Assembly (NCBI RefSeq): GCF_000299415.1
Contig: NZ_AMPG01000002.1
Coordinates: 744,001 to 808,000, forward strand
DNA: 64,000 nt
Origin: Candidatus Microthrix parvicella Bio17-1
GTDB taxonomy: Bacteria; Actinomycetota; Acidimicrobiia; Acidimicrobiales; Microtrichaceae
Reading direction: 5' to 3'
Below the pieces are notes generated by a model that saw nothing but the letters and a program-made list of their open reading frames with translations, ran no database searches and was not told the origin of the DNA. Positions within the stretch are counted from its first letter, which is position 1. Every line of letters begins with the position of its first letter. Below are positions 31,234 to 36,830 of the stretch, piece after piece. Made by a program: the position numbers and the translations under genes.

Positions 31234-31518
31234 CTACTTCGAGTCGTCGGTGGCAGCCGCATCGCCGCTGCGCTTGCGACGGCCGTACCGGCGCTCGAAG
31301 CGCTCGACGCGCCCGGCGGTGTCAACGATCTTCATCTGACCGGTGAAGAAGGGGTGCGAATACGACGAGATCTCCACCTTGGCCAGCGGATACTCGTTGC
31401 CATCGGAGAAGGTCACCGTCTCGGTGGTGGAGATGGTGGACTTGGTCAACCACTGCTCGCCGGAGGAGTTGTCGTGAAAGACGACCTGGCGGTACTCGGG
31501 GTGAATGTCTGGGCGCAT
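31234..31518 (-). CDS. rpmE: Ribosomal protein L31 (zinc-independent form)
   Basis: Large-subunit ribosomal protein, 94 residues. [20 protein letters not shown] and the [20 protein letters not shown] region identify L31. The CxxC zinc-binding pairs of the zinc-binding form are absent (SSYS in the place of CSKC), so this is the zinc-independent form, encoded at the normal rpmE position between rho and prfA. The C-terminus is extended by about 15 charged residues ([19 protein letters not shown]). Confidence 0.95.
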
Positions 31519-31672
31519 AACGAGGTCCTACTCATGTGGGGCACGGTGCCAACCGGCAGCGTGTTCTGGGAGTGCAGAGCGTTGAGGTAACGATCGGTGG
31601 GGCCGACCGGGAGGAAGGCGACCGGAAGACGCTAGCGGCCCGAAGCCCGGTTTGCGACTTGGAGCGGCGCCG

Positions 31673-33463
31673 TCAGGTGGTCGGCGTGGCCTTCAGGAGC
31701 GCATCGTTGTCCGGCGTTGCACGGATCTGCTCCACCAACCATTCCAGACCCGCCAACGACGATCCGTCCTCGTTGAGGGAGGCCAGGTGACGTCGCAGGC
31801 TCCGCATCCGGTCGGCCTCATCGGCACCCACCAACTCGTCGAGGTGACGGGTGGAGGTGTGATCCAGGTCAAGCGCGGGGAACACCTGCCAGTCGGCGGC
31901 CCGTCGATCGAGGTGCACCTCCATGTTCGCGGTACCCGCAAACTCCGCCCACACCAACTCGTCGGCCGCGGCGGCGGTGTCGGAGCGCAGCGTGGCCAGG
32001 ATCGTCAGCGAGCCATCCCCGGACAGGCTTCGCGCCGCACCCAAAAACCGCTTCGGTGGGAACAGCGCCGCAGCGTCGATGCCACCCGGCAGCGTGCGAC
32101 CCGAGGGCTGCCCAACCGCCGAATAGGCACGAACCAGGCGGGTGATGCCGTCGACCAGGATCACCACGTCGTTGCCCAACTCCACCAGACGCTTGGCCCG
32201 TTCGAGGGTCAGTTCCAGCACGTGGGTGTGCTCCTCCGGGGGGCGTTCGAAGCTGGAGGCGATGACCTCACCGTTGGTCAGCTCACCCAGGCCGGTGATC
32301 TCCTCGGGTCGCTCGTCCACCAGCAGGATCATCACGTGAGCGTCGGGGGTGGCGGCCTCAATGGCCCGGGCCAGGTTGGCCAGCACCGTGGTCGCCCCCG
32401 ATCGCGCCGGAGCCACGATGAGCCCGCGCTGACCCAACCCGATGGGCGCCAGCAGGTCGATGGCACGGGCCGTGACATCGTCGGGGCGATCTGCGGTGGC
32501 CAAGGCCACGCGTTCGTGGGGATACACCGGGGTGAGATCGTCAAACCGGGGCCGCTGCCGGGCCTGCTCGGGGCTGAGATCCATCACCTTGTCCACCCGA
32601 AGCAGCGCCGGGTTCTTCTCGCGACCACCGGCCGGTCGATAGGCGCCGGTGACATGGTCGCCCTTGCGAAGCCCGTTTTGGCGCACCATCTTGGCCGAGA
32701 TGTACACGTCCTCCCTGGAGGGCAGGTAGCCCTTGACCCGGAGGAAGCCGTAGCCCTCGTCACGCAGGTCAAGAAAGCCCGCCACCTCAACCGGCTCGCC
32801 CTCCCACTGGCCATCATCCTCGTCACGGTTGCGACCGCGACGACGGCCGCGCCGACGTCGGTTGCCGTCGTCGTCCAACTCGTCCAGGCCGGAGTCGTCC
32901 TGGTTGGGGCCGTCCTGGTTGGGGCCGTCCTGGCCGGAGGCGTCCTGCCCGGAGTCGTCCTGCTTGGAGCCGCCGGCACCGGCATCGTCCTGGTCGTCAC
33001 CGTCGTGTCGATGGTCAACCTGGCGCTTGGTATCCTTGCTCCCTACGGCGCGCTGCCGACCGGCGGCACCATCGTTGCCCTGTCCCTCGCCGCCCCGACG
33101 CCCGGAAGCGCCCTGTCGGCCGCTCTGCGAACCGGAGCGACCGCTGTTCCCGCCGGCATCGGTCGACTCGGCGTCGTCGGACGCGGTCTTTGTGGCAGCG
33201 GTCTTTGGGGCAGCGGTCTTTGTGGCAGCGGTCTTTGTGGCAGCGGCTTTTGGAGACGTGGCCTGAGCATCATCGTCGCCATCAGCCGGCTCCTCAGCGG
33301 CGGCCTCGTCGACGCCTGCCAACTTGAGGATCAAGTCGACGATGTCGGCCTTCTTGGCACGAGCGGGTGGCTTCGTGCCCAGCGCCGTGGCGATGGTGAC
33401 CAGTTGGGTCCGGTCCTTGCCTTCGAGCTTGGTGCGTTCCAGGTCGATCGACTCGTCCGCCAT
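31673..33463 (-). CDS. rho: Transcription termination factor Rho with altered Walker A
   Basis: RNA helicase for termination, 596 residues. Residues 1-55 are a Rho-N-like helical domain; 60-220 are low complexity with tandem ATKTA, NQDGP and Arg-rich (RRRRGRRRGRNR) blocks; 225-275 form the RNA-binding cold-shock-like domain (GYGFLRVKGYLPSREDVYIS); the rest is the ATPase. DERPEEITGL and the R-finger segment TSTRHLDELV are preserved. The P-loop, however, reads APARSGATT where family members read PPKAGKT: the Walker A lysine is Ala357 (codon 32393-32395). Start ATG 33463 was chosen over a longer arginine-rich frame. A leader of about 170 nt lies upstream. Confidence 0.93.
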   Translation of the reverse strand: MADESIDLERTKLEGKDRTQLVTIATALGTKPPARAKKADIVDLILKLAGVDEAAAEEPADGDDDAQATSPKAAATKTAATKTAAPKTAATKTASDDAESTDAGGNSGRSGSQSGRQGASGRRGGEGQGNDGAAGRQRAVGSKDTKRQVDHRHDGDDQDDAGAGGSKQDDSGQDASGQDGPNQDGPNQDDSGLDELDDDGNRRRRGRRRGRNRDEDDGQWEGEPVEVAGFLDLRDEGYGFLRVKGYLPSREDVYISAKMVRQNGLRKGDHVTGAYRPAGGREKNPALLRVDKVMDLSPEQARQRPRFDDLTPVYPHERVALATADRPDDVTARAIDLLAPIGLGQRGLIVAPARSGATTVLANLARAIEAATPDAHVMILLVDERPEEITGLGELTNGEVIASSFERPPEEHTHVLELTLERAKRLVELGNDVVILVDGITRLVRAYSAVGQPSGRTLPGGIDAAALFPPKRFLGAARSLSGDGSLTILATLRSDTAAAADELVWAEFAGTANMEVHLDRRAADWQVFPALDLDHTSTRHLDELVGADEADRMRSLRRHLASLNEDGSSLAGLEWLVEQIRATPDNDALLKATPTT

Positions 33464-33640
33464 GTGGGGAGATCCTCTTGGTTGGGCATCGATGCCGTCA
33501 ACGGCATGTCGATGCGGCGAGCACCCGGAAGGGGCGACGCATTCGGTTTCGGCTGGCCGTCGATGGAAGCGCACGCCATGGTGAAACCACCTGGCTCCGC
33601 AGGGAGTCGGTCGTCGCTCACCTTCGGCTCAGCAAATGGC

Positions 33641-33671
33641 ATGTTATCGACGCACCCAACCCGGACGACAA
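33641..33671 (-). promoter_or_regulatory. Candidate rho promoter
   Basis: On the minus strand, TTGTCG (33666-33671) is followed after 19 nt by TAACAT (33641-33646), a reasonable -35/-10 pair although the spacer is long; GATAAC two bases earlier gives 17 nt. It lies about 180 nt before the rho start in the 238-nt gap between rho and the acidic protein gene. The rest of this gap shows no gene. Confidence 0.35.
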
Positions 33672-33701
33672 TTCTTGCGGCATCCAACCGCAACCACTTG
33701 T

Positions 33702-34250
33702 TCAGCCGTCGTCCTCGTCGCCCGACATCCCGCCGGCGTCGCGCTCAGACTGCGAGCTTCCCTCCGGCGTCTGGGAGGTTTCTGCCTCCGGGTGAAGGGA
33801 CACCCACGACTTCTTGGGTTCTTCAGGGTCGAGGTGCACGCGGATGGGCCCATCGTCGTCGCCCTCGCGTGCCTCCTGGACCGCAGGAGGCTTGGAGTTG
33901 TCGCGGCCGTAGACGATCTCTTCGAGCACCATTCCGACATTGAGAAACGCCACCGACACGGCACCCTTGCGCGACCTGCTGGGCAACGCCGGTGCCTCGT
34001 GACTGTCGGCATCGTCGGCGAAGTCGGGCTCCCAGTCGGGGTCATCGAAGTCGAGGTCGATCGCATCGGGACCGCGAAGTTCGCTGTCGTCGTCGGTGGA
34101 GGCGAACCGGCCGGAGGCCTCGTCCAACGCTCCTTGGGTTGCGGTGGGCACCTCAGAGCGGTCATCCAGCTCAGATTGATGGTCCAGGTCATCCTGGTCA
34201 TCAGGCTTCGCGCCCGACAGGTCGGGGGTGTCGTCGCGCCTCGAACTCAC
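33702..34250 (-). CDS. Acidic hypothetical protein between apgM-like gene and rho
   Basis: Not recognised. A 182-residue, Asp/Glu-rich hydrophilic protein with one hydrophobic segment near residues 98-115 (GAVSVAFLNVGMVLEEIVYG). The N-terminal two thirds are mostly Asp, Glu, Ser and Ala. GTG 34250 overlaps the upstream stop codon as GTGA, so it is translationally coupled to the apgM-like gene. Composition suggests an intrinsically disordered protein. Longer frames upstream are arginine-rich shadow. Confidence 0.65.
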   Translation of the reverse strand: MSSRRDDTPDLSGAKPDDQDDLDHQSELDDRSEVPTATQGALDEASGRFASTDDDSELRGPDAIDLDFDDPDWEPDFADDADSHEAPALPSRSRKGAVSVAFLNVGMVLEEIVYGRDNSKPPAVQEAREGDDDGPIRVHLDPEEPKKSWVSLHPEAETSQTPEGSSQSERDAGGMSGDEDDG

Positions 34251-35434
34251 GCCGGCACCTCGGGGGTTGGGGCCTCCAGCAGGTCGGCCATCAGTTGGTG
34301 CCCGGGGATGATCGGCTCGTCGGCCACGCCCGCCTCGCTGTAGACGCCGCCCGGGCCATCGACCGCCGAGTCCACCAGCAGATACGGCACGGGCTCGGTG
34401 GTGTGGGTCTTCAGCGCCACCGGCGTCGGATGATCGGGCGACAACAGCAGCCGCCACGGCCCCTGTGCGTCCAGCCCGACCACCAGGTCGGCCAGGATGC
34501 GACGGTCCCAGTTCTCGAGCGCCTCCACCTTGGCGGCCACATCGCCCGCGTGACCGGCCTCGTCGGTCGCCTCAACGTGAATGACGAACAGATCGGTTCC
34601 GGCGGCCAACGCAGCGAGTGCGGCATCCCGCTTGCCTTCGTAGTCGGTGTCGTACCAGCCGGTGGCACCCGGTACCTCCACCACGTCCATGCCCGACAGC
34701 ACCCCCAACCCGCGCACCAGGTCGACTGCGGTCACCATGCCGGCGCTCACACCCCAGCGCTCGGTGAAGTTCTCCAACACCGGTTGGGTTCCCTGCCCCC
34801 ACAGCCACACGTGCGTGGCCGCCAGGTCGTCAAAATCGGCCAGCACCTCGGCCGACGCCTCCATGATCGCCCGCAGCTCGGCGGAACCCGGCCCGGTGGG
34901 CCACACCAGCGCCTTGCCCGACAGGTCATGAGGTGGCACGCATTCGGCGTTCAGCCAGTCGGCGGCGGCGCACATGATGTGGCGGTACTGCACTCCGGGG
35001 TGGAACGACACGTTCCCGGCACCGCCGACCATGGCACCAATGCGTTCGTCGAGCGCCGCCATGGCCTTTGCCGCCACGTCGGAGTCGGGGTGGCCACCGG
35101 CGAAGTCCACCATTTCGTCGGCGGCCTCGTTCAGCGTGACCAGGTTTGCCCGAAAGGCAATCTGGCCCGCTGCCAGCCGCATGCCCAGCGCGGCGGCCTC
35201 GATGGGCGCCCGGCCGGTGTGGAACCTGCGTGGGTCATAACCAAGCAGCGACATATTGCCAACATCGCTCCCCGGGGGCATGCCCTCTGGGATCACCGCC
35301 GCCCGTCCCACACGGCCGCGGGCGGCCAGCGCATCCAAATTGGGGGTGTGGGCCGCCTGCAACGGGGTCAGCCCGTCCAGTTCAGGCACGGGATGATCGC
35401 TACAACCGTCGGGAACACACACCACATACTTCAT
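34247..35434 (-). CDS. Archaeal-type cofactor-independent phosphoglycerate mutase-like protein (possible homoserine kinase)
   Basis: Alkaline-phosphatase-superfamily enzyme, 395 residues. The N-terminus MKYVVCVPDGCSDHPVPELDG, the metal-binding nucleophile region PPGSDVGNMSLLGYDPRRF, IHVEATDEAGHAGD and the closing SPDHPTPVALKTHT match the ApgM/BPG-independent phosphoglycerate mutase group. Genes of a bacterial subgroup of this family sit in threonine clusters and have been proposed to be homoserine kinases. Here it lies 7 nt downstream of thrC with no thrB in the window, which supports that role (inference). ATG 35434 has GGGAG 11 nt upstream. Confidence 0.88.
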   Translation of the reverse strand: MKYVVCVPDGCSDHPVPELDGLTPLQAAHTPNLDALAARGRVGRAAVIPEGMPPGSDVGNMSLLGYDPRRFHTGRAPIEAAALGMRLAAGQIAFRANLVTLNEAADEMVDFAGGHPDSDVAAKAMAALDERIGAMVGGAGNVSFHPGVQYRHIMCAAADWLNAECVPPHDLSGKALVWPTGPGSAELRAIMEASAEVLADFDDLAATHVWLWGQGTQPVLENFTERWGVSAGMVTAVDLVRGLGVLSGMDVVEVPGATGWYDTDYEGKRDAALAALAAGTDLFVIHVEATDEAGHAGDVAAKVEALENWDRRILADLVVGLDAQGPWRLLLSPDHPTPVALKTHTTEPVPYLLVDSAVDGPGGVYSEAGVADEPIIPGHQLMADLLEAPTPEVPA

Positions 35435-35441
35435 CAGCCCA

Positions 35442-36830
35442 TCATCTCCCATCGGCGGCGTGGCGTCGCATCAGGTCCTGCACCTGGGCCAACCCGGCGC
35501 CGACCGAATCGAAGCGTTCGGGTCGATCCAACAGGTCCGCCAGCCGCTCGGGCAGTTGTGGCCGGACTCCCGTGGCGGCCTCGACGGCATCGGGAAACTT
35601 GGCCGGATGGGCGGTGGCCAGCGCCACCATGGGCACCCCCGGCTTACGCCGGCGCTCACCCGCATAGAGGCCGATCGCAGAGTGAGGGTCGAGTTCGACA
35701 CCGCGACCGTGCCAGGCGGCGATGGTGGCGGCCACATCGTCTTCGTCCACCCGAACCCCATCGAACCGGTCGGTGATGCTGCGGTGCACCGCAGGGCTCA
35801 CCCGGTAGGTGCCGCGGTCGGAGAAGGTGACCATCATCTCGGCGCACAGCGCCCCGTTTCGACCGCCGGTCTCAAAGAGCAGGCGCTCGAAGTTGGACGA
35901 CACACCGACGTCCATCGAGGGGCTGGTGGTCGCCAGCACCTCGGCGGACTCCATGGCCCCGGTGTCAAGGAACCGCACCAGGACGTCGTTTCGGTTGGAT
36001 GCGACCACCAGCTTGTCGATCGGCAAGCCCATGGAACGGGCCGCCCAGCCTGCAAAGACATTGCCGAAGTTGCCGGTGGGCACGGCGAAACTCACCGGCG
36101 AGCCGTCGGGCGAGACGGCCAGATGCGAGCTGACGTAATACACGATCTGAGCCATCACCCGCGCCCAGTTGATCGAGTTGACCGCTCCGAGGTTGACCTC
36201 GGCACGGAACGCCTCGTCGGCGAACGCCGCCTTCACCAGCCGTTGACAATCGTCGAAGTCGCCGTCGACCGCCACCGGGTGCAGGCGAGGCTCACCCAAG
36301 GTGGTCATCTGGCGTCGCTGCACCTCTGACACGCGGCCATCGGGAAAAAGTATGAACACCTCGACCAACTCGGTGGTGCGGCACCCCTCCATCGCCGCCG
36401 AACCGGTGTCGCCCGACGTGGCCCCCAGCACGGTCAGCCGCCGGCCGCGGCGCCGCAGCGCCACCTCGAAGAGCCGTCCCACCAACTGCAGGGCAACATC
36501 CTTGAACGCCAGCGTTGGACCCCGGTACAGCTCGGTGAGGTACAACCCATCGCCCAGGTCACGCACTGGACACACGTCGGGATGATCGAACACCGCGTAG
36601 GTGTCGGCCACCAACCGGTCAAACTCGGGCCGCTCGACGTCTTCACGCACAAAGGGCCACATCACCTCTGCCGCCACCTCGGCATAGGGACGTCCGCGCA
36701 GCTCGTCCAACGGCGGCAGTTGCGGCCACGTGTCGGGGAGGTAGAGCCCCCCGTCCGGCGCCAGGCCGCCCAACAGCACGTCAAAGAACCCCTGCGGCTC
36801 GCCGCCGCCACGGGTCGATACGTATCTCAT
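35442..36830 (-). CDS. thrC: Threonine synthase
   Basis: Converts O-phosphohomoserine to threonine with PLP. The 462-residue protein has the N-terminal signature MRYVSTRGGGEPQGFFDVLLGGL, PLP-binding Lys110 in PTLAFKDVALQ, the GATSGDTGSAAMEG loop and SFAVPTGNFGNVFAGW. The length and the N-terminal element put it in the longer threonine synthase class as found in enterobacteria and some actinobacteria. It follows hom after 57 nt and precedes the ApgM-like gene after 7 nt. Confidence 0.95.
   Translation of the reverse strand: MRYVSTRGGGEPQGFFDVLLGGLAPDGGLYLPDTWPQLPPLDELRGRPYAEVAAEVMWPFVREDVERPEFDRLVADTYAVFDHPDVCPVRDLGDGLYLTELYRGPTLAFKDVALQLVGRLFEVALRRRGRRLTVLGATSGDTGSAAMEGCRTTELVEVFILFPDGRVSEVQRRQMTTLGEPRLHPVAVDGDFDDCQRLVKAAFADEAFRAEVNLGAVNSINWARVMAQIVYYVSSHLAVSPDGSPVSFAVPTGNFGNVFAGWAARSMGLPIDKLVVASNRNDVLVRFLDTGAMESAEVLATTSPSMDVGVSSNFERLLFETGGRNGALCAEMMVTFSDRGTYRVSPAVHRSITDRFDGVRVDEDDVAATIAAWHGRGVELDPHSAIGLYAGERRRKPGVPMVALATAHPAKFPDAVEAATGVRPQLPERLADLLDRPERFDSVGAGLAQVQDLMRRHAADGR

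Follow-up and report, generated by a model that had tools for sequence, protein, structure and literature searches.

It has been disputed whether the termination factor Rho must pull RNA in order to terminate, or can inactivate RNA polymerase in some other way. For Mycobacterium tuberculosis Rho, motor-independent termination was once proposed and then contested: according to PMC4499133 its catalytic residues are conserved, it acts as an ATP-dependent motor, a competent catalytic site is needed, and an ATPase-deficient catalytic-glutamate mutant does not unwind efficiently. It is a motor despite a weakened R-loop, in which Lys326 of Escherichia coli Rho, a residue of the secondary RNA site, is replaced by Thr501 (PMC4499133 and PMC8828861, the latter also giving K184 as the Walker A lysine). 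Nucleotide-bound Rho structures show contacts through K181, K184, T185 and R366, and a contact between R353 and W381 is thought to keep the ring open (PMC11829017). Here we describe the Rho of Candidatus Microthrix parvicella Bio17-1, encoded in a stretch of 64,000 nucleotides (contig NZ_AMPG01000002.1, positions 744,001 to 808,000; hereafter the window). Like M. tuberculosis Rho it comes from an actinobacterium, carries an N-terminal insertion and has a weakened R-loop, and it shares with the E. coli and M. tuberculosis (7oqh) proteins the two-domain fold, the RNA-contact residues, Walker B, the catalytic glutamate and the arginine finger; unlike the M. tuberculosis protein, it has lost catalytic-site residues.

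Erosion of the motor with retention of the RNA-binding half is real, specific to certain lineages and recurrent. In the window the gene and its parts are as follows.

31673 to 33463, minus strand: rho, 596 codons starting with the ATG at 33463; a GTG further upstream could likewise serve as start
32393 to 32395, minus strand: codon 357 (gcg; cgc on the plus strand), alanine replacing P-loop Lys184
32402 to 32404, minus strand: codon 354, arginine replacing Lys181
32567 to 32782, minus strand: OB-fold primary RNA-binding domain, residues 228-299 (Pfam PF07497), contact residues conserved
31865 to 32467, minus strand: RecA-type ATPase domain, residues 333-533 (PF00006), with P-loop, R-loop and 336-339 motif eroded
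32798 to 33310, minus strand: low-complexity N-terminal insertion, about residues 52-222, from the translation

An initial annotation of this sequence had reported alanine 357 in place of the P-loop lysine, and this is correct, with no gap and no frame problem: the flanks GQRGLIVAP...SG-T align gap-free to E. coli GQRGLIVAPPKAGKT (the reference protein being identical to the rho product of NC_000913), so that Ala357 corresponds to K184 and Arg354 to K181. The same annotation considered the rest of the ATPase intact, which is true of DERPEE, the Walker B aspartate and the STR of the arginine finger, and in all the equivalents of T185 (Thr358), E211, R212, D265, R269 and R366 are conserved. It is not true of the R-loop, where E. 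coli TGSKMD has become TAAAAD with K326 replaced by alanine, nor of EFKGTGN, now EFAGTAN (K336 and G339 both to alanine), R353 (glutamine) and W381 (arginine). Residue 336 has a role in coupling. Set against the hallmarks of an ATP motor, the protein thus retains Walker B Asp265, catalytic Glu211, the arginine valve R212 and the arginine finger R366 and lacks the Walker A lysine K184, the second P-loop lysine K181, a lysine or arginine at 326, and K336. Arginine at position 181 is a weak criterion alone, as it occurs in Rhos with K184, E211 and K336 intact. RNA-contact positions 64, 66, 78 and 108 (E. coli numbering) are all conserved. A paper on the class describes an insertion in Rho as a marker (PMC5962788). 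Our search of the open-licence literature found no report of a Rho without the P-loop lysine; surveys of Rho diversity may mention one.

Against profile models the protein scores 420.5 bits with NF006886 (above the cut-off of 315) and 421.3 bits with TIGR00767 (below the cut-off of 509.45), and its OB and RecA domains match PF07497 and PF00006 at 81.2 (cut-off 27) and 58.5 bits (cut-off 29.5). It differs from the short form described by NF041509, 'paralog_Rho2', which it matches at 381.9 bits, far below the cut-off of 628. An AlphaFold model of residues 223-592, built with 46 related loci, has a predicted local distance difference test score (pLDDT) of 95.7 and a predicted template modelling score (pTM) of 0.93. 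When this model was searched against known structures with VIA-align, the first 24 matches listed were all Rho chains (Z 33-50), the best being M. tuberculosis Rho 7oqh_D (Z 50.2, root mean square deviation 1.3, 360 residues aligned), with E. coli Rho chains at up to Z 49.2 and other RecA-type ATPases among the listed matches at Z 28 or less. The predicted structure thus keeps the Rho fold and is silent on catalysis.

Mean identity of the window Rho to 23 intact Rhos of its family is 72% in the OB domain and 54% in the RecA domain, as compared to 77% and 84% for the intact proteins among themselves, which identifies the motor domain as the part that drifted. We estimated the ratio of nonsynonymous to synonymous divergence (dN/dS) by the Nei-Gojobori method in 14 pairs of eroded Rhos, several of which share a genome, and 11 intact pairs. 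For RecA the ratio was 0.036-0.312 in eroded pairs and 0.010-0.090 in ten intact pairs, one being saturated; for the OB domain (67 codons) it ran from 0 to 0.175 in eroded pairs (one saturated) and from 0 to 0.235 in intact pairs (two saturated). Because motor-domain values of 0.04-0.31 are found between eroded sister genes, the eroded Rhos are under purifying selection and are not pseudogenes.

We surveyed relatives at several depths. Among 33 genomes of the family, 29 have a Rho match and 28 a readable P-loop, and K184 is lysine in 26 of the 28, the exceptions being the window's genome (G000) and G023, which reads PPNVDTS; G032 keeps K184 with K181 and K336 changed. The initial annotation had named lysine in all relatives as grounds for refuting its observation; most relatives do have the lysine, and the observation is not overturned, because the loss is confined to particular lineages and has occurred repeatedly. 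Of 198 genomes drawn from the order, 185 have a Rho match, and motifs were read in part of these (the top-scoring loci, two batches that were fetched and a follow-up of low scorers). Readable Rhos from 133 genomes comprise 99 intact, counted one per genome with fragments omitted, and 34 eroded, the window's included; because low scorers were sought out, 34 is a lower bound and 34/133 is not a frequency. The eroded proteins fall in eight families (f1 3, f18 3, f26 6, f34 12, f40 1, f52 1, f58 3 and f59 5). Because the two classes were told apart by visual inspection of the P-loop and the 320-341 motif, the figures in those columns, such as K184 (lost in 20/34 eroded, lysine in 99/99 intact) and K181, K336 and G339 (retained in 0/34 eroded), characterize the group and are no test of it. 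Elsewhere in the eroded proteins, E211 is kept in 24/34, Arg-finger R366 in 20/34 and Walker B D265 in 34/34, and the RNA contacts F64, R66, D78 and E108 are kept in all 33 that are readable there. Erosion is graded within f34, from G416 and G406 (K181, K336 and G339 changed, K184 kept) to SGAS or SGVT P-loops with DQRPED in G399, G404 and G381. The eroded rho match of G399 (contig C30, L156) contains one in-frame TGA, that of G404 none. Open frames with the same dead sites are kept in genus g41, in five species at synonymous distances of up to 1.9, and in genus g74, in four species.

In a draw of 296 genomes from the class at completeness of at least 90%, 261 scored above the TIGR00767 cut-off (their motifs were read in part), 27 below it, and 8 had no match. 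The 27 comprise 20 eroded Rhos, all in the window's order, and seven fragments, contig ends or gaps (G028, G405, G266, G293, G320, G327 and G349); weak scores outside the order came from fragments, contig ends or N gaps, and the motifs that could be read there were intact. Some near-complete genomes, for example G046, lack a rho match, and such absences were not used as evidence: NusG matches, found in 24 of 24 eroded genomes examined, are missing from G046 and from G125, which has an intact rho, so gaps in rho may be gaps in assembly.

The initial annotation had also proposed a second rho elsewhere in the genome. No such gene was found by a Rho-model search of the assembly (4,202,850 bases in 13 contigs, 95% complete), which matched only the window rho, the window's atpD and atpA, and one sequence at E 0.43 that contains an internal stop; a full-length NusG is present. 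Gene order at the window rho matches that in intact relatives:

31234 to 31518, minus strand: rpmE, type B ribosomal protein L31, directly downstream of rho (NF002462, 128.8 bits, cut-off 86)
34247 to 35452, minus strand: apgM-type phosphoglycerate mutase, upstream of rho (NF003242, 429.8 bits, cut-off 426; TIGR00306, 406.7 bits, cut-off 320)

The apgM-type gene is the upstream neighbour of rho in many relatives too, and in this order rho normally has rpmE beside it. Of the 27 eroded loci examined, 26, including that of the window, have rpmE directly downstream of rho; it was found at 92 of 114 other loci in the same count, a set in which fragments, two non-Rho loci and the duplicated loci of G023 and G032 are also counted. 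This adjacency argues that the eroded Rhos occupy the original locus as orthologues, and against a paralogue that has spread.

To place the losses on a species background we relied on a tree built from the RpoB of 15 eroded and 14 intact genomes, 29 in all, omitting G083, for which the RpoB fetched was a divergent extra copy. The window's genome is sister to four intact relatives (clade support 100/97; the four alone 99/92), G023 pairs with G032 outside that clade (100/94), intact G071 is the partner of eroded G117 (100/100), and within f18 the two kinds of genome are intermixed. At least nine changes between the eroded and intact states are required, and we infer repeated parallel losses because regain of a lost active site is implausible. 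The apgM tree failed to place the window's genome.

More extreme eroded Rhos than the window's are found, by their motifs, in further actinobacterial families. Among 398 genomes of the phylum at completeness of at least 95%, 370 have a Rho match, 330 above the cut-off and 40 below. We followed up 28 of the 40 and two above the cut-off: all 28 are eroded by motif (f117 9, f130 6, f108 7, f106 5 and f126 1). Of the two others, G681 (f126) has K184 without K181 and K336; G583 is intact over the part that was read, and its match is interrupted by two stops. In f117 and f130, E211 is gone (DERPEE now reads xGxRPEE), and so is the segment that carries the Q- and R-loops; 7/9 of f117 retain the P-loop lysine. 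In f108, K184 has become arginine or alanine in 7/7, and K336 is lost. By similarity f117 appears to be Solirubrobacteraceae: when eroded Rhos from these families were used to scan named genomes, its matches among the best 80 of 568 relatives included Conexibacter sp. and Patulibacter americanus DSM 16676. Of these best 80, 44 have K181, K184, E211 and K336 and 36 lack the full set, 11 differing only by arginine for K181 (ten from Acidobacteria, one titled Deltaproteobacteria) and 25 being of the eroded Solirubrobacterales kind. K184 is lysine in all 55 non-eroded loci among the 80, and the 11 with arginine at 181 and intact K184 make clear that K181 alone is not diagnostic.

We consider it probable that the window rho is a vertically inherited orthologue that has turned into a non-translocating RNA-binding factor. 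ATP-driven translocation would have been lost and the protein kept for binding nascent RNA through its OB domain, probably with its binding to NusG and RNA polymerase retained. ATP hydrolysis would be absent or feeble, a ring or other oligomer would still form, and the factor could act by occupancy, most simply by holding RNA or by slowing or inactivating RNA polymerase without pulling. Of the three explanations that the initial annotation offered, a non-hydrolysing regulator is the one we favour, given the additional coupling residues lost, the parallel cases and a pattern of conservation that now favours the RNA-binding domain over the motor, with non-hydrolysis itself predicted from the residues. 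Substitution by the preceding arginine is unlikely: it sits at the K181 position, where arginine is a natural variant in Rhos with K184. In ABC exporters with degenerate nucleotide-binding sites the machine still has another site that is intact, whereas all subunits of a ring of window Rho would presumably be alike. Those exporters, like the window Rho, keep the ATPase fold around a dead site (PMC7756269). A bolder reading, which we hold to be less likely than not, is that Rho has repeatedly become, across Actinomycetota, a factor that terminates or silences without a motor: a ring that binds RNA, is still recruited along with NusG to RNA polymerase, and would stop or silence untranslated transcripts by occupancy or by allosteric inactivation of the polymerase, with no ATP-driven translocation.

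Several observations weigh against the main reading, that of a non-translocating RNA-binding factor. With T185, E211, R212, D265, R269 and the arginine finger in place, the window Rho may still hydrolyse ATP weakly, and 14/34 eroded Rhos retain K184; the complete absence of K181, K336 and G339 from the eroded class is partly a product of how the class was drawn. The window's genus is represented by one genome, and the selection figures come from other eroded lineages. A Rho tree unites the eroded proteins on long branches, and independence therefore rests on RpoB and gene order; in an approximately unbiased (AU) test, placing the window Rho with nine intact family Rhos was not rejected (p 0.541, log-likelihood 3.24 higher), and in view of this and the long branches we give the grouping no weight. 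Finally, the status of single copy is not clean in G114 (f34), where another contig (C104, L146) holds a further piece of Rho that covers 110 model positions and has APPRTGKT and DERPEE intact. This piece stands within a frame with unrelated flanks, resembles the Rho of other phyla and looks foreign or chimeric. In G032, a run of N on contig C43 (L032/L034) separates two different P-loop segments, SPPRSGKT and APPRTGKT, which represent either tandem rho copies or a chimeric contig.

The protein could still be a motor, hydrolysing ATP slowly with its remaining Walker B aspartate, catalytic glutamate and arginine finger while another residue replaces K184. The six retained active-site equivalents fit this, as does the existence of Rhos with arginine at K181 and the other key residues intact, but we consider it unlikely, because both P-loop lysines, the R-loop lysine and K336 have gone together and because losses of E211 (10/34) and of the arginine finger (14/34) among eroded Rhos indicate a trend towards loss of the whole site; Rhos of the Solirubrobacteraceae type lack even the stretch carrying the RNA-translocating loops. 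It is likewise improbable that the gene is a functionless relic under relaxed selection and on its way to being lost. RecA dN/dS is several-fold higher in eroded than in intact pairs and reaches 0.31, and rho matches are missing from some near-complete genomes; however, the ratios stay well below 1, the OB domain is strongly constrained, g41 and g74 maintain their open frames, and the absence calls are weak where NusG is missing as well.

Two further explanations can be set aside with greater confidence. That the window gene is a paralogue, with an intact rho hidden in an assembly gap, is very improbable: the assembly is incomplete and the eroded G114 does hold a piece of a different Rho, but no other Rho was found in the window's genome, gene order is that of intact relatives, and the further Rho-model matches in other eroded genomes, apart from G114 and G032, are weak, with E values from 1e-22 up to 1e-16 or weaker, and cover only the ATPase part. 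One of them, the second Rho-like match of G023, is a flagellar FliI-type ATPase, the only such weak match that was given an identity. A sequencing or assembly error at the P-loop has next to no probability, and the initial annotation had already called a sequencing slip unlikely; only one genome represents the genus, but six further functional positions differ, the same sites have changed in parallel in independent genomes, and the frame is open across 596 codons with a G+C content by codon position (0.738, 0.468 and 0.832 in the core of rho) like that of the upstream gene (0.746, 0.485 and 0.831).

Two genome-wide comparisons gave negative results. Eroded genomes (mean 0.375 in 16, including G083 with its divergent extra copy) and intact ones (0.350 in 14) are not told apart by how purine-rich the four-fold sites of their rpoB are, so the Rho-avoidance signature reported for Bacilli (PMC13323073) is of no help here. 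Hairpins followed by a U-tract were at or below shuffled expectation in four genomes at 400 kb each (14 observed vs 17.0 expected in the window's genome, from one contig; 1 vs 2.5 in G005; 2 vs 2.5 in G117; 5 vs 6.2 in G071), while an E. coli control of 37 kb gave 11 vs 4.6, the nulls being Euler shuffles for the four genomes and a Markov resample for E. coli. There is thus no sign of compensation by intrinsic terminators, in small counts and with one motif tried.

The eroded natural Rhos, including those in records of the cultivated genera Conexibacter and Patulibacter, offer a direct test of whether the motor is needed. If they still terminate, the motor is dispensable; if they do something else with RNA instead, Rho has a second job worth keeping. 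They are predicted to be insensitive to bicyclomycin.

A few further observations were made along the way. An open frame of 763 codons runs antisense to rho (window 31652-33943, plus strand); it is probably not a gene, long antisense frames being common in such G+C-rich sequence. In G083 an additional RpoB-like gene on contig C62 (L165) is divergent, sharing 59% identity with the RpoB of the window's genome, and the other rpoB lies on C8; G021 has two rpoB matches and groups with another family in the RpoB tree. Every listed genome of f97 (10) and f119 (4) is without a Rho match at 1e-30, which suggests a possible loss of rho at the family level. Records titled Candidatus Eremiobacterota and Bifidobacterium breve (L241 and L244) hold a Rho of the Solirubrobacterales type, and these bins look mislabelled or contaminated.
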